Assembly (NCBI GenBank): GCA_947630085.1
Contig: CANRGP010000012.1
Location: 1 to 39,213 of the forward strand
Direction of reading: 5' to 3'
Length of the DNA: 39,213 nt
Source of the DNA: an uncultured Lachnospiraceae bacterium
GTDB lineage: Bacteria > Bacillota > Clostridia > Lachnospirales > Lachnospiraceae
Positions 1 through 12,177 of this stretch are shown in pieces. Below the pieces are notes generated by a model. The model did not search any database. It was not told the DNA's origin and was given only the letters and a program-made list of their open reading frames with translations. The position numbers and the translations under genes are program-made. Each line of letters opens with the position of its first letter. Within the stretch, counting starts at the first letter, position 1.

Positions 1-3000
1 CATTAGAAATCTCACCAGATCACTGCTATCTGCGGTGGGGATCGCCGGAGGGCTTTATGGCGCCTTTCAGGGAATACGAAAAGCCATTGATATCTCAAGC
101 GATTTGACTGAGGTTCAGAACGTCGTCGATGTGACTTTTGGCGACATGGCTGAAAAAATTGACAAGCTGGCTGATACGTCGATACAAGATTTCGGGCTTT
201 CTGAATTGACTTTAAAGCAGATCTCCAGTCGCTTTCAGGCAATGGGGACAGCAATGGGGTTCGGTCAGGAAAAAATGTCCGATATGTCCATTGAGTTGAC
301 AAAACTGGCCGCAGATATGGCGTCCTTCTACAACGTTGAACAGGAGGCCGTCGCTGAAGATTTGGCGGCAATATTTACGGGCCAGACCCGTCCACTTCGC
401 CAATATGGACTTGATTTAACAGAGGCCACTTTACAAGAGTGGGCCATGAAAGAAGGGCTTGATTCCAATATATCCGCCATGACACAGACGGAAAAAACCA
501 TGCTGAGATATCAGTATGTAATGGCTAACACGACGGCAGCACAGGGCGATTTCGCTAGAACTGCGGATACTTGGGCCAATAGTCTGAGAGTTTTGGTTCA
601 GAACTTCCAGGCATTAGGTTCCGTGGTAGGTGGCGTCCTGATTAACGCTTTCAAACCCTTGATTTCCGTATTAAACAACGTCATGCAAAGCGTGATTGCG
701 TTTGCGGAAACTGTGGCGAATGCCCTGGGGGTTATCTTTGGCTGGACGATCCGCATTGATAGCGGTGGAATTGCGAATGATTTTGAGGCCGCTGGGGCCG
801 GTGCCGAGGCTATGGAAGATGGTACTGGCGGGGCTGCTGATAATGCCAAAAAAATGAGCAAATACATTGCGGCATGGCAGGAAGTCAACAACATGACCAC
901 CCCGGATAATACGGAGGGAAGTGGTGGCAGTGGTGGTGCTGGCGGTGCCGGAGGAGCCGCAGGAGCCGCAAAAGCTGAACTCGTTCAGATGGAAACTATT
1001 TTCGACAAGTACGAGAGCGAGATTGACAGTCTGTATGAGTTGGGCGAGTACATCGGTGATACCCTGACCAGAGCAATGAATGACATCGACTGGAATGGTG
1101 TGTACGAAGGTGCAAGAAATTTTGGAAAAGGTTTAGCCGATTTTCTGAATGGTCTGATTTCACCGGAGTTGTTTGGCGCTGTCGGAACAACTATCGCTGG
1201 TGCTTTGAATACCGCGATTTATGCGTCTTTGTCATTTGGCGAGAATTTCGACTGGAAAAATTTGGGGTTATCTATTGCTACGGGGATAAACAACTTCTTT
1301 GACACATTTGACTTTTCGGCGCTGGCACAAACGATAAACACATGGGCAAATGGGTTGCTAGACGCGATTATTGAAGCCCTAGATAAAATTGATTGGAAAA
1401 AAATTGGTACGGAAATCGGAACATTTTTGTCGAAAATCGACTTCGGTAAGATTTCCAAAAAAGTAATGAAGGCTTTGTGGAAAGCGCTTAACGGTGCATT
1501 TAAAAGCTACATAAAGCTTTTTGAGACGGCTCCCTTTGAAACAGCAATACTTTCGCTCGTTGCCGTAACAAAACTCCTCAAGACAACAAATATAACAAAA
1601 TTTTTTAGCGCATTAAAAGGCGGCATATCCGTTGCAGAAAATCTCGGTGGTGCGTTATTAGGACAAAATACAGCTTTGTTGGCTCTCCAGACACAGATGC
1701 CAAAAACATCTAAAGTCGTAGAAGCGCTCCGAACAGCATTTAGCAGATTCCAGTTCGGAATCGTTAATGGGAATCTCTTTACGGGCATAAGAGAAGGATT
1801 TGGAAGCATAACGACTTCAATTCAGACAGCAATAGCAAATTTGTCGCCCCTTACGAAGGTCATTGCTGGAATTGGTGTCTCTGTTGGGGAATTCATGCTT
1901 ATAAAAGATGCGTTTTATGATCTTGCTTCTGGATCTGGAAATTTAATAGTTGCACTTGGTGAAATCGGAGTTGCCGCAGGAGTGGCCGGAACTTTCATGT
2001 ATAGTGCATTTGGTCCGGCGGGATTAGCAATGGCGGCGACTACAGGTTTGATTGCAGCAATAATGGGAATAGAAGAGGCAATCGAGCAGATAGAAACTGA
2101 AAGATTGGGGGAAGAAATAAAAGAATCACTTACAAATCCGGGCGGCACACCTATTGAAGAAATAGTTACAAACTTTTCTGAAACTGTAGGGGCTATAAGC
2201 GATAGTTTTGGGCTTATCAGCGATAAGGCCAGCGGAATGGATAACGTTCAGACAGAAATACGCGATACATGGATGGAAATCGAGAAAATAGAAAAATCCA
2301 TGGATGCTGGCGTAATTTCCGTTGAGGAAGGTTCAAAAAAATTAACAGAACTATTCGGAACGCTTGCTGAAACCGCACAAGTTAAGTTCGGTATACTGGA
2401 GGACACTTTACTTGCTGCATTTGGTGAAAACGGAGCATTGGCACAGTCTTACGAAAAAACCGGAATTAAAACAGAAGAATTGATGAAAGATGTACTGCAA
2501 GTAAATGATTCCGCACTAAAAAGGATAAAAGAAATTACACAGGAACTATCAACACTTGACCCATCAAACCCCAATTATATAACTTTAAAACAAGAGTTGG
2601 CGGATTTAATGGGCACAACGGATGATTTATCGCAAGCAGTTAGCGATTATGACCTAAAGATAAGTAGCGTTAATGTAGATTATAGCGGTTTGCTGAATGG
2701 CGCCGGACAATTAGATGAAAGTAAGTTAACAAGCACACTTGATACGATAACAACTGCGATAGAAGATGCGGATATTGGCATTACAGATGGTGTTTCAGCT
2801 ATTAAAAATGCCTTGGAACAAGAATTACAAGCTGCGATTGATATGGGAGATGAAATAAGCGCTGAAAATTTTAGATCAGCCTTAGAACAACTTCCGAATT
2901 CCATGAATGATTTGCAAATTGACATAAGAACTCAAGGAATAAGCATAACAGATGCTTTGCAAACTGAATTTATTGACCAAATCAATCAAAGAATCGCAGA

Positions 3001-4270
3001 TGCGCAAGCCGATTGGAGCACCTTAGATTGGCAAGAAAAACTAATATACGGATTTGATGAAACCACCTATATTCAGGAACAAGTGTTAAGTTACAAAAAA
3101 AATTACATTGACCCATTATCCCAAACAATCGAAGAAAGTTTTGAGCAACTGGGAATTGATGGGGCCGGTTGGTCATCGGAAGCTGCTGGCGAGATAATCG
3201 GAAAAATGTTTGATGTTCAGGTGGTTCCCTATACTGGGGAAGTAATTACAATACTTAACTCAAACTGGCAGGAAATTATAGCCGAAGCGATAAAAGGTAT
3301 ACCAGAGTCGGCAAAAACGGCTGGTGAAGGAATTGCTAAAGAATATGGATCTGGAATAGAAAGCTCAATCGAAGATCTAAAAGAACCTACAAAAAAAGCT
3401 TTTGAAGGATACGCAGCATATTCTGAAGAAGGATTTAGAAACAAAATAAATGAATTAGCCACAAAATCTACGCCATCAATAATGACATATTGGGCGCAAA
3501 AAGGAGTGATCGAACCATTTGGTGGAAGAGATGGGATAGATTCTCACTCTCCATCAAAAGTTTTTGAAGACTTTGGTAAAAATGTTGTTGAAGGATTAAA
3601 TCAGGGAATTTCCTCGAATCAAAGTAGTTCGCAAGATCCTATAGAAACATGGGTATCCAATATAAAAAGCTGGTTTACTTCTGTACTGGGCATAAATTCG
3701 CCATCAACTGTATTTAATGGTTACGGGGCAAATATTGTTGAGGGGTTAAACAACGGAATCTCTAATAATCAATCTAGTACAGAGGGAACAATCGGTTCAT
3801 GGGTATCTAAGATAAAAAAATGGTTTACTGATAAATTAGATATTGGTTCCCCATCAAAAGTTTTTGAAGATTTCGGCGGTTTTACCATCGAAGGGTTTAA
3901 TAAAGGAATTAAAAACAACATGGGGAGTTCTTTCAATCTGATACGTCAGTGGTCAGATGGTATTATGGAAGGATTTGCGATAAATGTACCACAGCTTGAT
4001 CTATCTATTCCAGACGTAGACTTTAATCCGAAGATAAAATCCCCCGATATAAGCAAATTCCAAAACAGTGTACAGATGGAAATGGATGCAAAGATGGCGG
4101 AGCTTGCATTTGAAGAACGACAGAGAAACGAGCGACTGGATGCGATTATCGCGGCCATCGAAAACAAACAGCTTATTGTGGGCGACAATGAGGTTTTTGA
4201 AGCAAACCGAAGGGCGCAAAGCGTGTTTTACAAGCGCACGAACAGGATAGGGTTGGCTGGAGTAGACTAA
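1..4270 (+). CDS. Phage tail tape measure protein (5' partial)
   Basis: Long tail protein that sets tail length and is thought to help DNA entry. The frame is open through the left edge (first whole codon at base 2), so the GTG at 35 is not the start. The N-terminal part (EVQNVVDVTFGDM, about residue 27 of the open frame counted from 35) looks like a TP901-type tape measure. A Gly/Ala/Ser linker follows near residue 295, then a long region with several hydrophobic stretches (around bases 1950-2090), as usual for tape measures. The last part carries three copies of an approximately 55-residue repeat of the form SPSxVFxxxG...EGxNxGI..N at about 3540, 3700 and 3850. The stretch from about 1500 to 4050 is visibly more AT-rich than both ends of the gene, suggesting mosaic exchange. 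Followed by a hairpin at 4274-4297. Confidence 0.93.
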   Translation, partial: IRNLTRSLLSAVGIAGGLYGAFQGIRKAIDISSDLTEVQNVVDVTFGDMAEKIDKLADTSIQDFGLSELTLKQISSRFQAMGTAMGFGQEKMSDMSIELTKLAADMASFYNVEQEAVAEDLAAIFTGQTRPLRQYGLDLTEATLQEWAMKEGLDSNISAMTQTEKTMLRYQYVMANTTAAQGDFARTADTWANSLRVLVQNFQALGSVVGGVLINAFKPLISVLNNVMQSVIAFAETVANALGVIFGWTIRIDSGGIANDFEAAGAGAEAMEDGTGGAADNAKKMSKYIAAWQEVNNMTTPDNTEGSGGSGGAGGAGGAAGAAKAELVQMETIFDKYESEIDSLYELGEYIGDTLTRAMNDIDWNGVYEGARNFGKGLADFLNGLISPELFGAVGTTIAGALNTAIYASLSFGENFDWKNLGLSIATGINNFFDTFDFSALAQTINTWANGLLDAIIEALDKIDWKKIGTEIGTFLSKIDFGKISKKVMKALWKALNGAFKSYIKLFETAPFETAILSLVAVTKLLKTTNITKFFSALKGGISVAENLGGALLGQNTALLALQTQMPKTSKVVEALRTAFSRFQFGIVNGNLFTGIREGFGSITTSIQTAIANLSPLTKVIAGIGVSVGEFMLIKDAFYDLASGSGNLIVALGEIGVAAGVAGTFMYSAFGPAGLAMAATTGLIAAIMGIEEAIEQIETERLGEEIKESLTNPGGTPIEEIVTNFSETVGAISDSFGLISDKASGMDNVQTEIRDTWMEIEKIEKSMDAGVISVEEGSKKLTELFGTLAETAQVKFGILEDTLLAAFGENGALAQSYEKTGIKTEELMKDVLQVNDSALKRIKEITQELSTLDPSNPNYITLKQELADLMGTTDDLSQAVSDYDLKISSVNVDYSGLLNGAGQLDESKLTSTLDTITTAIEDADIGITDGVSAIKNALEQELQAAIDMGDEISAENFRSALEQLPNSMNDLQIDIRTQGISITDALQTEFIDQINQRIADAQADWSTLDWQEKLIYGFDETTYIQEQVLSYKKNYIDPLSQTIEESFEQLGIDGAGWSSEAAGEIIGKMFDVQVVPYTGEVITILNSNWQEIIAEAIKGIPESAKTAGEGIAKEYGSGIESSIEDLKEPTKKAFEGYAAYSEEGFRNKINELATKSTPSIMTYWAQKGVIEPFGGRDGIDSHSPSKVFEDFGKNVVEGLNQGISSNQSSSQDPIETWVSNIKSWFTSVLGINSPSTVFNGYGANIVEGLNNGISNNQSSTEGTIGSWVSKIKKWFTDKLDIGSPSKVFEDFGGFTIEGFNKGIKNNMGSSFNLIRQWSDGIMEGFAINVPQLDLSIPDVDFNPKIKSPDISKFQNSVQMEMDAKMAELAFEERQRNERLDAIIAAIENKQLIVGDNEVFEANRRAQSVFYKRTNRIGLAGVD

Positions 4271-4273
4271 TTT

Positions 4274-4297
4274 AGGGCGGCTGAAATATGCCGCCCT
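4274..4297 (+). terminator. Hairpin after the tape measure gene
   Basis: Perfect 8-bp inverted repeat AGGGCGGC / GCCGCCCT with an 8-nt loop, 3 nt after the tape measure stop. No clear T-run follows (GCACAAAAATG), so it may be an mRNA-stabilising or partial terminator hairpin rather than a strong terminator. Confidence 0.45.
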
Positions 4298-4475
4298 GCA
4301 CAAAAATGTGTTAAGGAAATAAGAATATGCAGAAAATTGAAATCAATCGGCATATTACAAAGTGCATAATGCCTTAGATCACTATAAGGAAATTAGGGTA
4401 TATTACAAATAATAAGTTTATAGCAAAAGCAAAAGAGGCGCTGAAACTGGCCGGAGAAATAATCTGATTCCAGAC

Positions 4476-4504
4476 TTTTCATCCATGCTTATTTGTGGTA
4501 TGAT
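4476..4504 (+). promoter_or_regulatory. Candidate promoter of the small membrane protein gene
   Basis: TTTTCA at 4476-4481 (weak -35), 17-nt spacer, TATGAT at 4499-4504. TGG sits directly upstream, giving an extended -10 (TGnTATGAT). It lies 35 nt before the start codon at 4539. Together with the strong terminator behind the gene it makes an independently expressed cassette. Confidence 0.4.
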
Positions 4505-4538
4505 GAAAGAAACACTAATGATAAGGAGGAAAATACTT

Positions 4539-4883
4539 ATGCGTAAAAGGGTAATTTGTTTTGCTATTTGGCTATTGGTCACAATATTATATGTTTGGGA
4601 TCTTTCTGACATAGGAAGATCAATGGGCGCATTTACGAATAAGGCCATTGAAAGATATTCTGAAATGATGGTCGAATATGGAGGCACAACTACAAATTGG
4701 GACAATTTGGGGAGCGCACTAAGTGATATGGCAATATACAGAATGGATTGTAATCTTTCAAAAAGATTTAAAGGCAATTTTATTTCTATTGGTGTGACAA
4801 CGGCTTTAGAAATTGTGATTAGTATAGCCTGTTACCATTTTGCTACGAATGAAAGAGAAAGGAAACGTAAATATGAGGATTAG
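4539..4883 (+). CDS. Small two-TM membrane protein, moron candidate
   Basis: I do not recognise a family. The start at 4539 is chosen over the in-frame ATG at 4485 because an ideal AAGGAGG (4523-4529) lies 9 nt upstream. The 114-aa product has a hydrophobic segment at about residues 5-20 and a second at about 78-95. Between them is a soluble part of roughly 55 residues, and the C-terminus is basic/acidic (NERERKRKYED). It sits between the tape measure and the next tail gene, where tail genes are normally contiguous. With its own candidate promoter and terminator this fits a moron (lysogenic-conversion gene); superinfection exclusion is a possible role but only a guess. Base use is AT-rich. 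Confidence 0.7.
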   Translation: MRKRVICFAIWLLVTILYVWDLSDIGRSMGAFTNKAIERYSEMMVEYGGTTTNWDNLGSALSDMAIYRMDCNLSKRFKGNFISIGVTTALEIVISIACYHFATNERERKRKYED

Positions 4884-4966
4884 CGGATTTGCTATTTAAA
4901 ACTTTTTATTCTTCCTTGCAGAAGAAATTCGTTTGAATAACGCTGAAAAATAAAAACCAAAGCATA

Positions 4967-5000
4967 AGAACGTCTTACCACATGGTAGGGCGTTCTTTTT
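4967..5000 (+). terminator. Rho-independent terminator behind the moron candidate
   Basis: 14-bp near-perfect stem (AGAACGTCTTACCA / TGGTAGGGCGTTCT, with G-U pairs), 2-nt apparent loop (in practice the inner pairs open), then a T-run at 4995-5000. It closes the 4539-4883 cassette before the tail genes continue. Confidence 0.8.
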
Positions 5001-5070
5001 ATGCCATAAATCCGGCCGGAAAAATGAGGATGCCGGCCGCTAACCTCGAAAAGAATGGAGATGGTCGCTA

Positions 5071-5475
5071 TTGTATGGGTTTGAAGGATGGCTGCTAAAG
5101 ATTAACGGATTTGACATGACGCCGTATATCCATGCCGGAAGTTATAAGGCCACGCCGGATCAGCAGACAGACATTGACGATTACACGGACAATGAGGGAA
5201 TTTTCCACCGAAATGTCCTGCCTGCAAAAGCCACAAAAATCGAGTTTGACATTAAGCCAGTGCGGCTGTCTGACAAAATCAAAATCCAGGCTGCATTTCC
5301 AACACGAACCGAAGTATCTGTGGAGTATTGGAATGACGAAACAAATAAATATCAGACAGGAAAGATGTATATTCCCGACATCACATTTGAGCCGTACATA
5401 GTGTATCGGAAAATCGGTGACGTGCTTTACAATCCGATCCGGGTGGCGTTGATTGAGTACGGGGAGGTGCGATAA
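5071..5475 (+). CDS. Phage tail protein in distal-tail position (DUF6711-like)
   Basis: 134-aa protein reading MYGFEGWLLKINGFDM at its start. It resembles the short DUF6711-type phage proteins found between tape measure and tail hub in Clostridia phages; this family call is from memory of the pattern. The start is TTG at 5071. The frame is closed by TAA at 5041-5043 and contains no ATG that would keep the conserved N-terminus, and a GGAG lies at 5057-5060. The stop overlaps the start region of the next gene (TAATG, 5473-5477), implying translational coupling. Its probable role is a tail-tip connector. Confidence 0.75.
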   Translation: MYGFEGWLLKINGFDMTPYIHAGSYKATPDQQTDIDDYTDNEGIFHRNVLPAKATKIEFDIKPVRLSDKIKIQAAFPTRTEVSVEYWNDETNKYQTGKMYIPDITFEPYIVYRKIGDVLYNPIRVALIEYGEVR

Positions 5476-7697
5476 TGCTAAAAATCCCTGAAGAGATAAA
5501 AGATATATACCGGCGAGACAATCTATCATCTGATACGGCCGTGAAGTTAAGGCTTAAATTTTATGATGATGATGTGGATCCCTTATATCCGTATGAGACA
5601 TTATGGCCGGCCGAGGAATTATACCCGGAAGAACACGAGGGAGATCCGTGGCTGCTCATTGAAAACAATCGCATTGTAACGGAATCGCTGAATCTCACGG
5701 AAAGCTTATCATCATCGGAAGACATGGAATTTGGCTCCTGCGAGTCTGCTGCGTTTGAAATAATTGTAGCGGATGTAATTGAAGATGTGACCGGAAAAGA
5801 GTTTTCGGCTACGGTTGAGGTCGGCGGTTATGAGATGGCGTTCGGGATTTACACCGTAGAATCCTTTGTGCGACAGGCGGACCGGAGAAAGCGGAAAATC
5901 ACGGCCTATGATCGCATGAGGAAATTCGACATAGACGTGGCCGGATGGTACAACGAACTGGTTTTCCCTATGACTATCAAGCAGTTCCGGGATTCCTTGT
6001 GTGATTATATCGGTGTGCCACAGGGCAACCAGACATTGCCGTTTGATGAGATGCAAATAAGCAAGACCATTGAGCCGGAGCAAATTTCCGGTCGGGACGT
6101 ATTGCAGGCCATTTGCCAGATCAACGGGTGCTTCGGGCATATCGACAAGACCGGGCAGCTTGTATACGTCATGCTCCAGCAAACCGGCCTTTATCCTGCC
6201 GAAAATCTATTTCCGGAAGAAACATTGTATCCATCGGAATTCGGGGGAGATGGCCAGCCGATAGAACACATTGACTATTACAAGGATCTCCAATATGAGG
6301 ACTACCTTGTGGAGGGGATCACCGGATTAACAATACGGCAAGAGGAGGGGGATGTCGGTGCCAGTGTAGGCGAAGGATCCAATCCATATGTTATTGAAGG
6401 TAATTTTTTGGTATATGGAAAGTCCGCATCTGAACTATTAAATATTGCGCAAGCATTACTACCATATATATATGGAAAAACGTATAAACCGTCTAAAATA
6501 GAATGTTACGCCATGCCGTGGCTTGAGGTTGGTGATGCTATACGAGCGCAAACCCGCGATGATTTAGTGGAAACATTTGTTATGAAGCGCACTACTAAAG
6601 GTGCTCAAGCGATGTTTGACACGATTGAATCCACTGGATCAATACAGCGGGAAGAAAATTTTGGCCTTAACAAAAAGATTATTCAGCTTGAAGGAAAAAC
6701 GGCTACTGTTATTGTTAACGTGGAAGAAGTTTCTGCGCGGGTGACAAACTTAAAAGAAGAAACGGAGTCCCAATTCAAGGTGACAGCTGAACAGATTTCG
6801 GCCGAAGTTACCAGGGCATCGGAAGCTGAAGCCGCAATTAGCCTGAAAGCAGACGGTATTATAACGGATGTGTCAAATTTCAAAAAAGATACCAACACGC
6901 GCTTTACGCAGACAGACGAAGCGATATCCCTTAAAGTTAGTAAGGGAACAGTATCATCTGAAATTTCTGCGGAATCCGGACAGGTGACAATCAAAAGCAA
7001 TCGACTGGTAGTTGAGAGCACAAATTTTAAGCTTGATTCCTCAGGGAATGCTACGTTTTCCGGAAGGGTTACTGGTGGAACTATTAACATTGGAGATGTA
7101 TTTACCGTTGATTCGTCCGGAAACACAAAAATTTCCGGGGATCATTTTACGTGGAATTCCACAAATTCTTCGATGGCAAGTGATGGAACAATAACTTGCA
7201 CAAAGCTAAAAGCGACAGATGCATCATTTTCTGGAAAAATTGAGGGATCGGAAATTAGTGGAACCACCGTAACCGGGGGAAGCATTTCGGGAACCAATAT
7301 TTACGGCGGAAATGATATCCCGTTTGCCGCGACAAGCGGCGAAGTTACTATAGGGGACTTTGGTGTAAACGATGGGTATGGTCGAAACATCTTCCAGTCA
7401 TCTGATGAGGCCACAGGAATGTCTACAGGAAACATATCCGGCGATAAATTGCTTTTGTGGGCCGGGTGGAAATTGAGCAGCACCGGAGAAGCAATCCTTC
7501 TGGTAAGAAGAAATGGAAGGGTAGAAATTAACGGTAGTTTATTTTTAAACGGGAAAAACATACTTGATTATATTAAAGAGGGCGGATGCTCGGACGATTG
7601 TCCCAGCGATACGGTTTGCTCTGATTCACCATGCTCAGAGTGCGGATCGCATAGCAGCTGCCCGAGTCACATCTGTACACAGGCTCCGGGAGGCTGA
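5475..7697 (+). CDS. Tail hub/spike protein with seven-cysteine C-terminal extension
   Basis: 740-aa structural tail protein in the position of the tail-associated hub or lysin (Tal / gp58-like). The N-terminal ~380 residues form a hub-like domain. Two copies of an LYPxExLxPxExLYPxE motif occur (about residues 37-52 and 247-262). From ~400 to 530 there are coiled-coil-like repeats (VTNLKEETESQF, AISLKADGI), then a Gly/Ser/Thr-rich beta-strand region (SGNATFSGRVTGGTINIG) typical of spike stalks. The last 38 residues are unusual: Cys at 705, 709, 715, 720, 723, 729 and 734, rich in Ser, Asp and Pro, ending in QAPGG. The stop is followed after 10 nt by a radical SAM/SPASM gene. The tip may be thioether-modified or metal-binding (lambda gpL binds an Fe-S cluster); neither is proven. 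No peptidase motif was identified. Confidence 0.85.
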   Translation: MLKIPEEIKDIYRRDNLSSDTAVKLRLKFYDDDVDPLYPYETLWPAEELYPEEHEGDPWLLIENNRIVTESLNLTESLSSSEDMEFGSCESAAFEIIVADVIEDVTGKEFSATVEVGGYEMAFGIYTVESFVRQADRRKRKITAYDRMRKFDIDVAGWYNELVFPMTIKQFRDSLCDYIGVPQGNQTLPFDEMQISKTIEPEQISGRDVLQAICQINGCFGHIDKTGQLVYVMLQQTGLYPAENLFPEETLYPSEFGGDGQPIEHIDYYKDLQYEDYLVEGITGLTIRQEEGDVGASVGEGSNPYVIEGNFLVYGKSASELLNIAQALLPYIYGKTYKPSKIECYAMPWLEVGDAIRAQTRDDLVETFVMKRTTKGAQAMFDTIESTGSIQREENFGLNKKIIQLEGKTATVIVNVEEVSARVTNLKEETESQFKVTAEQISAEVTRASEAEAAISLKADGIITDVSNFKKDTNTRFTQTDEAISLKVSKGTVSSEISAESGQVTIKSNRLVVESTNFKLDSSGNATFSGRVTGGTINIGDVFTVDSSGNTKISGDHFTWNSTNSSMASDGTITCTKLKATDASFSGKIEGSEISGTTVTGGSISGTNIYGGNDIPFAATSGEVTIGDFGVNDGYGRNIFQSSDEATGMSTGNISGDKLLLWAGWKLSSTGEAILLVRRNGRVEINGSLFLNGKNILDYIKEGGCSDDCPSDTVCSDSPCSECGSHSSCPSHICTQAPGG

Positions 7698-7707
7698 TGG
7701 GAGGAAA

Positions 7708-9051
7708 ATGCAACAGATTATAAAGTATGGCGGCATGGTTTATAGGACTCTGGGACATCAGGAATGTTATCCAGATAAAACCTATAAACCTAGCCGTTTT
7801 TGTATCGAGGAAAAGGTTACTGATGGATATTTAGTCTATCATACCATGACCAGAGAAATGCTCCTGATGACGGATGAGGAATACCATTATCTCTTTTTGG
7901 CAAATTGGTACGGTGACTGCCATAATTACCGTTATCTGGTGCGGCACTGGTATCTGGTCGAAGAAGGAATTGATGAAACATCTCTGTGCGACACCATGAA
8001 GCATATTTATAGGAATGCAACCCGGAGGAAAAGTTTTGATAAGTTTGACAGATACACGATCCTGACCACAACAAACTGCAATGCGCGGTGTCCATATTGT
8101 TATGAGTATGGGCGAAAGAAGCGGAGCATGAGTGCTAAGACCGCTATAGATGTGGCAACGTATATCAGGAAAACGGCCATGTCTAGTGTGACGCTTTCAT
8201 GGTTTGGCGGCGAGCCGCTGGTTAATTCAGAGGTTATTACAATAATCTCCCATAGACTTGCAACACATGAAATCCCATTCAAAAGTACGATGGTAAGTAA
8301 CGGCTATTTATTTGACCAGGTGAATGTAGAAGTTATGTGTAACATCTGGAAGTTGAATAATGTACAGATCACACTTGATGGGACAGAGAAACGATACAAC
8401 GAAACAAAAGATTATGTGTATCCCGATGTGAATGGGTACAAGCGAGTAATGGATAATATCAATCGGCTCCTAACCGCCGGGATTAAAGTGAACATCCGAT
8501 TAAACCTATCAAAAGATAATGCGGATGATATGGAAACACTTGTGGACATTCTTTATGCGAAGTTTTCTGGTCGTGGATTGACTGTCTATGCGTGGCCCCT
8601 GTTTGAGGGAGAAGGAAACCCGCCGCTGGCATTAACTGATGAAGAAAGAAAATATGTATACGACCGGTATATTAGGTTGCAGGATTATCTGGTATCGAAG
8701 GGACTAACCGGGCGATATGACTTGAAGCAGATGAGATCGACAAATTGTATGGCTGATAATCACAAAAGCGTGGTTATCATGCCGGAAGGAAACATAAGCG
8801 TCTGCGAACACCATAGCGACGATGAGTTAGTTGGGAGCATATACGGAGACACATATGATATGGATATGCTGAATTCGTGGCAAGAACATCTGGTGCTTCC
8901 ACAGTGTCGTGAGTGCGTATTATTGCCCCAATGCACGCGGCTGAAAAAGTGTAGTACCGATCCCTGTTTGGATGAAACCAGAAAATATACAGAGCATCGG
9001 ATACGTCAAGCAATGCGTTATGAATATGAGAGGAGCGTGGAGCAGAAATGA
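7708..9051 (+). CDS. Radical SAM/SPASM domain protein inside the tail operon
   Basis: 447-aa enzyme of the peptide-modifying SPASM branch (sactipeptide, ranthipeptide and anSME-type maturases). The CX3CX2C motif that binds the SAM-cleaving [4Fe-4S] cluster is C124-C128-C131. WFGGEP at 165-170 is the usual GGEP SAM-binding motif. The C-terminal SPASM cysteines are C347, C366, C400, C403, C409, C415 and C420, enough for two auxiliary clusters. The N-terminal ~110 residues could hold a peptide-recognition domain but I cannot confirm an RRE. The start at 7708 is chosen for GGGAGG 3-8 nt upstream; the in-frame extension to 7564 runs through the upstream gene's cysteine tail. It lies 10 nt behind the tail protein and overlaps the next gene (ATGA), so it is part of the tail operon. 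Inferred substrate: the Cys-rich end of the upstream tail protein. Confidence 0.93.
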   Translation: MQQIIKYGGMVYRTLGHQECYPDKTYKPSRFCIEEKVTDGYLVYHTMTREMLLMTDEEYHYLFLANWYGDCHNYRYLVRHWYLVEEGIDETSLCDTMKHIYRNATRRKSFDKFDRYTILTTTNCNARCPYCYEYGRKKRSMSAKTAIDVATYIRKTAMSSVTLSWFGGEPLVNSEVITIISHRLATHEIPFKSTMVSNGYLFDQVNVEVMCNIWKLNNVQITLDGTEKRYNETKDYVYPDVNGYKRVMDNINRLLTAGIKVNIRLNLSKDNADDMETLVDILYAKFSGRGLTVYAWPLFEGEGNPPLALTDEERKYVYDRYIRLQDYLVSKGLTGRYDLKQMRSTNCMADNHKSVVIMPEGNISVCEHHSDDELVGSIYGDTYDMDMLNSWQEHLVLPQCRECVLLPQCTRLKKCSTDPCLDETRKYTEHRIRQAMRYEYERSVEQK

Positions 9052-9233
9052 AAGTAGTTACATACGAATACGACAAGATGTTGCGTGCAGGTCAAATTTT
9101 GAACGACCTACATATTTTGGGCGTAAATCAGGCCCGTCTTGTTGCGGAACTGGGAAACATATTGGATTCCGGGACTCCAGGAGAGGTTTTTGAAAAGAAG
9201 AAAGAGGAGGAAGACGACGATGCCGTGGAATAG
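9048..9233 (+). CDS. 61-aa phage protein coupled to the radical SAM gene
   Basis: Not recognised. It starts with ATG overlapping the radical SAM stop (ATGA, 9048-9051), with AGGAG about 15 nt upstream, and ends 14 nt inside the fibre gene. So the three genes are translationally coupled. The product is MKVVTYEYDKMLRAGQ at its start, predicted helical through residue ~40, with a charged Lys/Glu/Asp tail (KKKEEEDDDAVE). It has no cysteine, so it is not an obvious radical SAM substrate. It could be a tail chaperone or fibre-assembly factor, or a partner of the radical SAM enzyme. Confidence 0.7.
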   Translation: MKVVTYEYDKMLRAGQILNDLHILGVNQARLVAELGNILDSGTPGEVFEKKKEEEDDDAVE

Positions 9234-10680
9234 AAAAAAATATGCAAGAATTAACTGGAAAAACCGTCCATCGACAGCGACGGCGTTGGGAGCAACGAAC
9301 CTGAATAAAATGGATCAGATGCTTAACGATGTCGATAATCAACTTGTTGAGTTTGACACGTCAAAGTTGAATGTGGATGTTGCCAACGGGATGCTGAAAA
9401 GCCTGACCATTGATACCAAGACCGGGAAGATTCAGGCGACTGAGCTGGGCGGAACTACACATGACTGGGACTTGAATCTGGAGAAGATTCCGGCGAAGTT
9501 TGAACTGTCTGAGGATGGAATCCTTACTATGACCACAGATGACGGAGAAAAATACACGGTCAATGTGGCTGAGTTAATCAAGGCATATGATTTTACGGAT
9601 TCTGATACGATAGATTTTACGAAGTCTGGGCAAGGGCCGTGGGACATTACGGCTATCGTGAAAGCCGGCAGTATTAAGGCAGAACACCTTGACCCTGATT
9701 GGAGAGAAGACGTCCAGCAGTTCAAGAATGATGCGGAATCGGCGGCGGCGGATTCTCTGCAATATTCCAAGGACTCTAAACGATGGGCGGTCGGTGATGA
9801 ATCCGTGCCGGATAGTGACACTGATAACAGCAAGTATTACAAGGAACAGGCAGAGGTGGCGAAGGAGGCGGCTGAACTTGCCCGTGATGAAGCGCAGGCG
9901 GCAACAGGGGCGGTTGTTATGGCTCCCGGAGTTCTGGGAGTAGGCAAACCCGATGATGTGACCGTGAAGGTGGACGAAGATGGAACCATCAGTATCCCCA
10001 AGGCAACCGTAGAGGCCGAAGGTATTGTAAGGGCTGACGAGAGCACCATTGCAGTAAATGACGGTACGCTTTCGCTGATTGCTACGGCCAGTCAGATTCC
10101 GGCGACAGACACTAGCGAACTTTTGCCGGAAGAAGAAAGCATCACGACCCAGAAACTCCTTGATGCGATTGCAGACCGAATTGTAAAAGAGCTTGTGACC
10201 AACTCCAAATTAACAGAAACGTTGGCGGATTATGTCACCAAGGCAATGATGTCTAACGAGGACGTAAACGATAAAAACAAGGTTCCGACAAGTGCGTTTA
10301 TCAACAGTTTGGTCACTAAAATCAATGCGAATGAGACGGCCATTAGTACGCTAAACAGCGAGACACTGGGAACGCTGGTATTCAATGAGTATGTAGAGAC
10401 GCCTCAATACTCGTATATCATTAAAATCGGTAAAATCGTGTTACTACAGCTTGATATGAACTTAAAAGATTTAACGGACGATTTCACAAATAATTTTACA
10501 AACGTCGGAATAATTAGTAATACTGACTTCTACCCAAGAGATACCTTACGCCAGACGTTGATTTCTGCTTCTGGTATCGTAGCCCAAATTTCAATAACCA
10601 CATTAGGAGAAATAAAATTCTATACAAGCGACAAAAAATTTCAATGCGGTCGGCAAAGGGTAATTTGGAATTGTAATTAA
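9220..10680 (+). CDS. Tail fibre, currently expressed form (variable C-terminus 1)
   Basis: 486-aa receptor-binding fibre. The start at 9220 (MPWNRKKYARINW) is chosen because AAAGAGGAGG lies at 9201-9210 and this is a typical fibre N-terminus that attaches to the tail. The ORF itself reaches back to 9139. The middle contains an Ala/Glu-rich coiled coil (EQAEVAKEAAELARDEAQ, about 207-225) and linker repeats. The constant part ends at residue ~378 with STLNSE. There the coding sequence crosses recombination site S1 (10344-10361), and the last ~108 residues form a swappable domain. The stop is only 3 nt from the end of the oppositely oriented silent cassette 2. Specificity probably depends on the C-terminal domain. 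Confidence 0.88.
   Translation: MPWNRKKYARINWKNRPSTATALGATNLNKMDQMLNDVDNQLVEFDTSKLNVDVANGMLKSLTIDTKTGKIQATELGGTTHDWDLNLEKIPAKFELSEDGILTMTTDDGEKYTVNVAELIKAYDFTDSDTIDFTKSGQGPWDITAIVKAGSIKAEHLDPDWREDVQQFKNDAESAAADSLQYSKDSKRWAVGDESVPDSDTDNSKYYKEQAEVAKEAAELARDEAQAATGAVVMAPGVLGVGKPDDVTVKVDEDGTISIPKATVEAEGIVRADESTIAVNDGTLSLIATASQIPATDTSELLPEEESITTQKLLDAIADRIVKELVTNSKLTETLADYVTKAMMSNEDVNDKNKVPTSAFINSLVTKINANETAISTLNSETLGTLVFNEYVETPQYSYIIKIGKIVLLQLDMNLKDLTDDFTNNFTNVGIISNTDFYPRDTLRQTLISASGIVAQISITTLGEIKFYTSDKKFQCGRQRVIWNCN
10344..10361 (+). repeat. Inversion site S1 (in the expressed fibre)
   Basis: TAGTACGCTAAACAGCGA, coding for the S-T-L-N-S-E junction. An exact inverted copy lies at 10994-11011. 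Inside it CGCT-AAAC-AGCG forms a short dyad, as expected for tyrosine recombinase half-sites. Confidence 0.85.
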
Positions 10681-10683
10681 AGT

Positions 10684-11011
10684 TTATCTGAGTAAAGCAA
10701 AATAATAACCAGTATATCTTCTTGGTTCGGCACTAACCCAAATATTAAAATTGCCAGAGGTATCAATTCCTATCCAAACGGCTTTTCCATTTGCATCAGA
10801 CGCAGTGCCTCTACCATCTGTTATTGATGGGAGGCCAGATATTGATATTTTTGCAAAGGTGTTCCCTATTGACGTGAATGTAATATCAAATCCGATGAAC
10901 ATGATTTTTTTATAAGTGTATACAGTAAATCCTGCTGTACCATCAGCCCCATTTATAAACTCAGAAGAGACATACACACGTTTAATCACTTCGTCGCTGT
11001 TTAGCGTACTA
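10684..11011 (-). CDS. Silent fibre C-terminal cassette 2
   Basis: An open frame without own ribosome binding site, pointing towards the expressed fibre. From the site codons (N-S-D-E) to the stop it gives ~105 residues, containing TVYTYKKIMFIGFDITF and a beta-rich end like fibre head domains. The frame can be read from a TTG at 11034, but that is upstream of the site and unlikely to be used. Inversion between S1 and S2 would fuse it in frame behind residue ~378 of the fibre. I see it as a stored alternative fibre end, not an independent gene. Confidence 0.8.
10994..11011 (-). repeat. Inversion site S2
   Basis: Exact 18-bp inverted copy of S1 (TCGCTGTTTAGCGTACTA on +). S1 and S2 bound a 668-bp invertible segment carrying cassettes 1 and 2. 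Confidence 0.85.
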
Positions 11012-11060
11012 GATTCAAAACATACTGTTGACAAGAGTTGACTGTTTCTTCTAAAATGAA

Positions 11061-11184: not shown

Positions 11185-12177
11185 ATGGTAAACGAAATCA
11201 GGAACAAAATCATGCTGGATCTGCAAGGCGAATTCACGCCACAGCAACTAATGATTATCGATCTGGCCATCGCAAAGGCTATGCGTGGCTATAAGATCGA
11301 GAAAGAAGAAACACTACCTTTAGTTTATCAATCCCCATTCCAGCCGGAAGTTAAAGAATTTTTTGTGCGAAAGAAAATGAAGGGATGCTCCGACGGGACA
11401 CTAAAGCGGTATCAGGAACTTTTACTGGACTTTTGCCGATGGCTGAATAAGGACATTAAGACCGTAACAGATGCGGACGTTTTGGCCTACCTTGCTTTTT
11501 GCGGGGGACGGGGAGCGAGTAACCGCACTCTGGACGGAAAACGGAGAGTGCTTACGTCGTTCTTCTCGTATATGCATGATACGGGTAAAATACCGAAGAA
11601 CCCCATGAAATCCGTTGATCCGATTAAGTATAAGGCCGAAGTAAGAAAGCCTCTTAATGACATCGAATTGGAGCGGGTGCGAAATGCTTGTCAGACACCA
11701 CGAGAAAAGGCGATATTTGAAGTCTTGTACTCTACTGGGTGCCGAGTAAGCGAAATCGTGGGCTTGAACTGGACAGACATTGACCAACAGAACAGGTCGG
11801 CAGTAGTCACCGGCAAGGGCAATCAGGAACGGTTTGTTTTTTTTAATGCCAAATCACTTTTAGCAATCGAGCGGTACATGGACACACGCGACGATTGCAA
11901 CGAAGCACTGTTTGTGTCTGAACGAGATCCGCATGATCGGCTCAAAAAAAGCGCAATCGAAAAGATAATACGGTCTATAGGAGAACGGTCTGGAATAGGC
12001 AGAAGGTTGTTCCCGCACTTGCTACGGCATACTTTTGCGACCGATATGTTGGAGCATGGTGCAAAAATCGACGAGGTATCTACACTGTTAGGACACAAGA
12101 AGTTAGAAACAACCAGAATATATGCTAAAACAAGCGTCTCTGCGGTTGCACAGGCGCATAGGAGATTTGCAGCGTAA
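11185..12177 (+). CDS. Tyrosine recombinase, probable fibre-cassette invertase
   Basis: 330-aa XerC/D-like recombinase with an N-terminal SAM-like DNA-binding domain (about 52-135) and a C-terminal catalytic domain. All catalytic residues are visible: R187 (TGCRVSEI), K211 (TGKGNQ), H278-LL-R281, H304 (LGHKKL) and Y313 (RIYAK). The start at 11185 has AAGGAG 10 nt upstream. It lies between fibre cassette pairs instead of at a phage end, and is flanked by inverted sites S2 and S3, as R64 rci lies beside its shufflon. So an invertase role is more likely than prophage integration; it could do both. A terminator follows at 12208-12233. Inversions pairing S1 with S4 or S6 would flip this gene too. 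Confidence 0.88.
   Translation: MVNEIRNKIMLDLQGEFTPQQLMIIDLAIAKAMRGYKIEKEETLPLVYQSPFQPEVKEFFVRKKMKGCSDGTLKRYQELLLDFCRWLNKDIKTVTDADVLAYLAFCGGRGASNRTLDGKRRVLTSFFSYMHDTGKIPKNPMKSVDPIKYKAEVRKPLNDIELERVRNACQTPREKAIFEVLYSTGCRVSEIVGLNWTDIDQQNRSAVVTGKGNQERFVFFNAKSLLAIERYMDTRDDCNEALFVSERDPHDRLKKSAIEKIIRSIGERSGIGRRLFPHLLRHTFATDMLEHGAKIDEVSTLLGHKKLETTRIYAKTSVSAVAQAHRRFAA

Follow-up and report, generated by a model that had tools for sequence, protein, structure and literature searches.

Pairing of a radical SAM/SPASM enzyme gene with a cysteine-rich phage tail tip suggests chemical crosslinking of a virion protein

What does a radical S-adenosylmethionine (SAM) enzyme act on when its gene directly follows a phage tail gene with a cysteine (Cys)-rich end? 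The question is raised by contig CANRGP010000012.1 (assembly GCA_947630085.1) of an uncultured Lachnospiraceae bacterium, analyzed here as one entire contig of 39,213 nt (hereafter, the window; source assembly 2.06 Mb, 79% complete). The element carrying the pair is a virus resident in a gut bacterium. The recurrence of the pairing, together with the absence of the Cys-rich end from related tails without the enzyme, suggests that these viruses chemically crosslink their tail tips, and we consider it likely that the enzyme is a dedicated maturase that crosslinks the tail tip of its own phage. The features of the pair are as follows:

5475..7697, + strand: 740-aa tail protein, encoded at the position of a tail-tip (Tal) gene (PHROGs phrog_18190, 2.5e-149, and phrog_6616, tail protein, 5.7e-20; gene order)
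7290..7580, + strand: C-terminal domain of the tail protein, common to tails with and without the enzyme (alignment A6; profile matches in G000, G008, G021, G448, and viral contigs)
7581..7694, + strand: Cys-rich tip, the proposed substrate, 7 Cys in 38 residues (sequence and statistics)
7708..9051, + strand: putative radical SAM/SPASM maturase, 447 aa (family models, motifs, structural match)
7708..8037, + strand: N-terminal domain of the enzyme, apparently resembling the recognition element (RRE) of ribosomally synthesized and post-translationally modified peptide (RiPP) systems (structural match to CteB 5wgg; family alignment A10)
8077..8100, + strand: CxxxCxxC radical SAM cluster motif, C124, C128, and C131 (conservation)
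8746..8967, + strand: predicted SPASM cysteines C347, C366, C400, C403, C409, C415, and C420 (conservation)

The final 38 residues of the tail protein contain seven Cys with intervals of x3, x5, x4, x2, x5, and x4 (first Cys codon at 7587-7589), compared with six in the other 702 residues; given a binomial P of 3e-8 and a Fisher P of 7e-7, this density is beyond chance. The tail stop codon (7695-7697) and the enzyme ATG (7708) are separated by a 10-nt gap with a GGAGG at 7700-7704. Both the seven-cysteine end with this spacing and the SPASM radical SAM gene 10 nt past the tail gene had been reported in a preliminary description of this DNA, and both are confirmed. The 70%-identical enzyme at L004/L053 begins at the corresponding position, in support of this ATG; the TTG at 7564, which begins the enzyme frame in the open reading frame (ORF) listing, lies inside the tail gene and is an unlikely start. 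The model of the 740-aa tail protein, built from a four-row alignment, has a predicted local distance difference test (pLDDT) score of 34, and therefore no fold is claimed for this protein; in a PDB sequence search with it, the best E value was 0.17, and not to tail proteins.

The enzyme matches the Pfam Radical_SAM model (5.4e-16), and its best NCBIfam model is TIGR04463 (1.3e-40; 139.5 bits, far under the curated cut-off of 525). For NF047865, which describes PapB-type ranthipeptide maturases, it scores 72.8 bits, under the cut-off of 340. Nineteen phage enzymes were compared (alignment A5), the other 18 being 27-70% identical to that of the window; all 19 match both TIGR04463 and the PapB model (the latter at 1e-10 or better), and nine match the QhpD model TIGR03906 at 1e-10 or better, the window enzyme not being among the matches listed. 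The CxxxCxxC motif is invariant in 19/19 phage enzymes and in 62/62 aligned relatives. The seven predicted SPASM cysteines (347-420) are likewise invariant across the 19; the 62-row alignment keeps all of them but C420 invariant. The best PDB sequence match of the enzyme is CteB (2.2e-21), and the enzyme model (pLDDT 94) aligns with CteB 5wgg across 389 residues (model residues 29-443, 15% identity), by which the N-terminal region is predicted to be RRE-like. The structural alignment of the model to SPASM enzymes spans residues 112-442.

The pair recurs in other phages. A single-protein search of viral contigs gave no matches, and profiles were needed: a three-enzyme profile recovered 18 loci, and wider profiles recovered 35 and 40. 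Among the 40 viral loci, 16 (L018-L024 and L036-L044) show, directly 5' of the enzyme, either Cys-rich ORFs within a tail region or a long protein that looks like a tail or structural one, and these cover the 14 best-scoring of the 40. In genome contigs, 80 loci were kept of 544 relatives, and by the upstream-neighbour listing four have such a cassette (L053, L054, L060, and L071, all titled Lachnospiraceae). With the source genome included in each count, a match is present in 18/397 genomes of the family at E 1e-30, 3/391 genomes of the class at 1e-60, and 9/145 near-relative genomes at 1e-20. Besides the window, 17 loci were tabulated, from uncultivated phages and Lachnospiraceae prophages, in which a related enzyme directly follows a tail or structural-looking protein. 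In a collection of cultured phages, the enzyme matches listed are at 33% identity or less; three candidates from this collection (L188-L190) were rejected as tail cassettes, being unannotated "UNVERIFIED" faecal scaffolds with bacterial-type neighbours. All 16 phage enzymes chosen for a careful 38-row tree (which omits L023, L037, L038, and L042) fall on one side of one branch (bootstrap 90, SH-like approximate likelihood ratio test 64), and in a 53-row approximately unbiased test one clade of phage enzymes is not rejected (p-AU 0.815). In a quick 139-row tree, L060 falls outside the phage group.

Many of the other inspected genome loci are chromosomal, some adjoining short RiPP-like peptides. 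Seven (L007, L012, L067, L088, L091, L094, and L120, in Lachnospiraceae and Oscillospiraceae assemblies) consist of two or three related radical SAM genes in tandem, and at L007 the adjoining small ORFs resemble PqqD and HPr kinase by eye. On a 467-kb IMG/VR contig (L046), a related radical SAM gene (5845-7113) has two short Cys-rich, RiPP-like ORFs downstream (8701-9108), and the same contig carries a second relative elsewhere (L156).

The Cys-rich end comes and goes with the enzyme. Using two tail C-terminal domain families as queries (alignments A6 and A7), we compared 18 tails that adjoin the enzyme with ten homologous tails that lack it (L152, L154, L170, L171, L172, L166, and L167, plus L177, L178, and L185). 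At least three Cys occur in the last 45 residues of 16/18 tails with the enzyme and of 0/10 without it (Fisher 5e-6); by family, the counts are 6/6 vs. 0/7 in family A (5.8e-4) and 6/8 vs. 0/3 in family B (0.06). None of the ten enzyme-less tails has a terminal Cys cluster, most of their ends being Gly-, Ser-, or Asp-rich. The Cys content is 17.6% in the 18 tips, compared with 0.8% in the remainder of the same proteins. No enzyme gene is found elsewhere on the eight control virus records (6.5-65.8 kb, possibly fragments), and the assembly of L166 and L167 has only distant homologues, on other contigs. Dropped from this comparison were a near copy of L040 (L042), second records of L053 and L060 (L004 and L005), a locus whose Cys-rich ORFs are apart from the tail protein (L023), one of uncertain genetic code (L037), three at contig ends (L153, L183, and L184), copies of L152 and L154 (L168 and L169), and Roseburia phage Jekyll (L155), which has an unrelated C-terminus. 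As background, of the 833 remaining ORFs that are 150 aa or longer at the retrieved loci, 31 carry at least five Cys in their last 45 residues; 11 of these are second copies of cassette tails, and the others include enzyme C-termini.

Several observations weigh against this association. The tails are related to one another, which weakens the co-occurrence P values, and the tree of family A resolves into three independent pairs, only one of them on well-supported branches. Furthermore, an enzyme beside a tail without a Cys-rich end, which the preliminary description had named as evidence against modification, occurs once: the L024 tail has a single Cys in its last 90 residues and adjoins a fragment of the enzyme in which the first cluster motif is intact. 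The L021 tail is marginal, with two Cys in its last 45 residues and six in its last 90. Given these two exceptions among the 18 tails, the Cys tip is usual and not universal.

The C-terminal domain, the Cys tip, and the enzyme also appear to travel together. The tail proteins of L060 and the window have only their last ∼130 residues in common (BLAST), and their bodies are unrelated and belong to different PHROG families (phrog_3558 and phrog_18190, respectively), such that the two loci share the C-terminal domain, the Cys tip, and the enzyme. The same layout is found at L044, where TAG is read as Gln; at L023, also with TAG as Gln, two small Cys-rich ORFs lie between a 1697-aa tail protein and the enzyme. 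On balance, we favor the view that, in a phage group with several members from anaerobic gut bacteria, a phage-encoded radical SAM maturase covalently crosslinks the end of a tail protein. This would be a RiPP-type virion modification carried as a mobile module of C-terminal domain, Cys tip, and enzyme, present also in stop-recoded phages and possibly reinvented with an unrelated radical SAM pair (L049 and L194, below).

Other arrangements of Cys-rich ORFs and radical SAM genes were also seen. On a 67-kb viral contig (L037, TGA possibly read as Trp), ORFs with 42-45 and 68 Cys (4406-5925) lie 5' of the enzyme and rank among the most Cys-dense ORFs of this analysis. The viral contigs L049 (496-3686) and L194 (5001-8783 and 10229-11074) carry another, distant radical SAM gene pair in the tail region, accompanied at L049 by a 132-aa ORF with 23 Cys and at L194 by a fibre-like ORF with Cys-rich repeats that runs off the contig; these may be an independent version of tail-tip modification. 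Lipoprotein-like ORFs (L138, 2723-3964; L139, 620-1372; lipobox by eye) from the genomes of two bacteria in the same family have Cys-rich tails (8-10 Cys in the last 45 residues) and stand beside related radical SAM genes; they could be a cellular counterpart of the pair. On a 52-kb viral contig (L052), a Pro/Thr-rich 961-aa ORF with a Cys-rich end (2-2887) overlaps the start of a 964-aa radical SAM ORF (2860-5754).

We hold with strong confidence that the tail tip is the substrate of the enzyme, since the pairing recurs in very divergent phages, enzyme-less tails have no Cys cluster, and the enzyme gives a near full-length structural match to a Cys-thioether maturase. We have moderate confidence that the links are Cys thioethers, most likely to Asp or Glu. 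In the proposed mechanism, the enzyme would bind the tail protein, probably via its RRE-like N-terminal domain, and radical SAM chemistry with the auxiliary SPASM clusters would join the sulfurs of the tip Cys to carbons of nearby residues. The partners would most likely be Asp or Glu, as in PapB and QhpD. Across the tips, 94/139 Cys are followed by Asp or Glu within three residues (77.7 expected; 2/2000 shuffles as high), but Asp or Glu preceding Cys is likewise enriched (24/2000 shuffles). The CX3D spacing is not enriched in the tips (Asp/Glu at +4 of 36/139 Cys, 31.9 expected). This variable spacing is no objection, because PapB is described in the excerpt of PMC9413430 as accepting Cys-Asp spacings of 0 to 6 residues. 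On this model, thioether links would tie the outermost part of the tail-tip protein into a small covalent knot on the virion. Such a knot would form in the absence of oxygen and, in contrast to disulfides, would withstand reducing anaerobic conditions; that such a covalently closed tip serves to resist reduction in anaerobic habitats is a weak suggestion as to function. The preliminary description had proposed that the enzyme modifies the Cys tip through thioethers, with a possible role in penetration or receptor contact: its choice of target is upheld by the recurrence, the 16/18 vs. 0/10 contrast, and the CteB-like structure, whereas the thioether chemistry, the number of links, and the penetration or receptor role are still inference.

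A related but less probable account keeps the tip as the target and changes the chemistry, such that the enzyme makes carbon-carbon or ether links, epimerizes residues, or oxidizes Cys or Ser as anaerobic sulfatase maturases do. However, Cys is what tracks the presence of the enzyme, the best PDB sequence match is a Cys-thioether maturase, and the PapB model is matched by all of the phage enzymes, which argues for thioethers. It is considerably more doubtful that the tip is disulfide-bonded or a ligand for metal or an iron-sulfur cluster, with the adjoining enzyme acting on something else. There is precedent in the lambda tail tip, where gpL holds a [4Fe-4S] cluster via four Cys (PMC10721106, in the excerpt seen), and the number and spacing of Cys differ widely among the tips, as in loose metal-binding tails; yet this account offers no reason why a peptide-maturase-like enzyme is so tightly paired with the tip, and gpL has four fixed Cys, with no maturase mentioned in that excerpt.

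The peptide-like neighbours of the chromosomal enzyme relatives, and the two Cys-rich ORFs apart from the tail protein at L023, would fit a RiPP precursor that is fused to the tail protein, modified, and then released from it by cleavage as a free bacteriocin or signal. We regard this as improbable, given that, at 16/18 tabulated loci, the tip forms part of a virion protein and that, by reading, no protease or exporter gene is seen beside the enzyme among the listed window neighbours. Other phage radical SAM genes are of unclear role, and those of Campylobacter phages were read as metabolic (PMC2853527, in the excerpt seen), so the enzyme could in principle be a passenger (moron) gene placed beside the tail gene by chance. 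The co-occurrence of enzyme and Cys tip makes chance placement very unlikely, and the 14 best of the 40 viral matches all lie in tail or structural-looking cassettes; this is the explanation to which we give the least credence. Crosslinking of the tail tip by the phage's own maturase is our preferred reading.

The features flanking the pair are:

35..4270, + strand: tape measure protein, truncated at the contig edge (PHROGs phrog_1535, annotated as tape measure, 8.7e-51)
5071..5475, + strand: DUF6711 protein in a Dit-like position, directly 5' of the tail gene (Pfam PF20458, 6.4e-43)
9048..9233, + strand: 61-aa ORF 3' of the enzyme (ORF listing)

The gene order of tape measure, distal tail (Dit), and tail-tip protein is represented here by tape measure, DUF6711, and tail protein, which places the tail protein in the tail-tip (Tal) position; at L018 and L060, a Dit protein (phrog_33) is encoded directly 5' of the tail protein. 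In enzyme-less relatives, the tail gene is directly followed by a small ORF that is similar in size to the 61-aa ORF of the window. Farther downstream, perfect 18-nt inverted repeats (10344-10361 and 10994-11011, spaced 632 nt) flank the 3' end of a tail fibre gene (9223-10680) and an opposite-strand ORF (10684-11034), and a tyrosine recombinase-like ORF (11185-12177) adjoins this segment, which looks like an invertible fibre end.

The enzyme class is known, and a phage tail protein would be a new kind of substrate for it. In agreement with the preliminary description, which knew of no phage tail protein modified in this way, searches of the open-licence PubMed Central literature, by listings and excerpts (a scope that leaves out subscription papers and preprints), gave no report of radical SAM maturation of a phage tail protein; the 11 radical SAM genes of Campylobacter phage CP220 are interpreted as metabolic in PMC2853527. 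If the proposal holds, radical SAM peptide maturation, so far a matter of small peptides and a single enzyme subunit, would also act on a virion tip, some unexplained phage radical SAM genes would be accounted for, and the pair would show how covalent crosslinks arise and persist in reducing, oxygen-free surroundings where disulfides fail. It also offers a compact substrate-enzyme pair that is open to direct testing, and predicts that tail tips of this kind, if Cys-rich, should adjoin the enzyme gene.

Among known systems, the CteB/SCIFF ranthipeptide maturases share with the phage enzyme the layout of RRE (only predicted in the phage enzyme), radical SAM, and SPASM domains, a Cys-dense substrate (here the proposed one), and a near full-length structural match, but their substrates are short peptides and the structural identity is 15%. 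In ranthipeptide and sactipeptide systems generally, the substrate is a short precursor peptide with a leader; the partner here is the C-terminus of a 740-aa protein, in which no leader was identified. The PapB/freyrasin system is similar in its Cys- and Asp-rich substrate and in the model matched by all of the phage enzymes, and differs in that the tips are without CX3D enrichment and the window enzyme scores far under the family cut-off. Likewise, TIGR04463 ("rSAM_vs_C_rich") is the best NCBIfam match, yet the window enzyme is no member of that curated family. Like lambda gpL, whose cluster sits in an exposed tail-tip domain (PMC10721106), the proposed system places functional Cys on the exposed tip of a siphophage tail (the tip here being read from the genes); unlike gpL, it would use them for crosslinks made by a maturase and not to hold a cluster. 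QhpD, the maturase of the quinohemoprotein amine dehydrogenase gamma subunit, puts Cys-Asp/Glu thioethers into a protein subunit and not a short peptide (PMC8172795, in the excerpt seen), which indicates that such enzymes can modify proteins. The phage enzymes resemble it in having a proposed protein substrate and, for nine of them, in matching its model; the likeness is at the general family level only, as the QhpD substrate is an enzyme subunit and the one proposed here is a virion protein.
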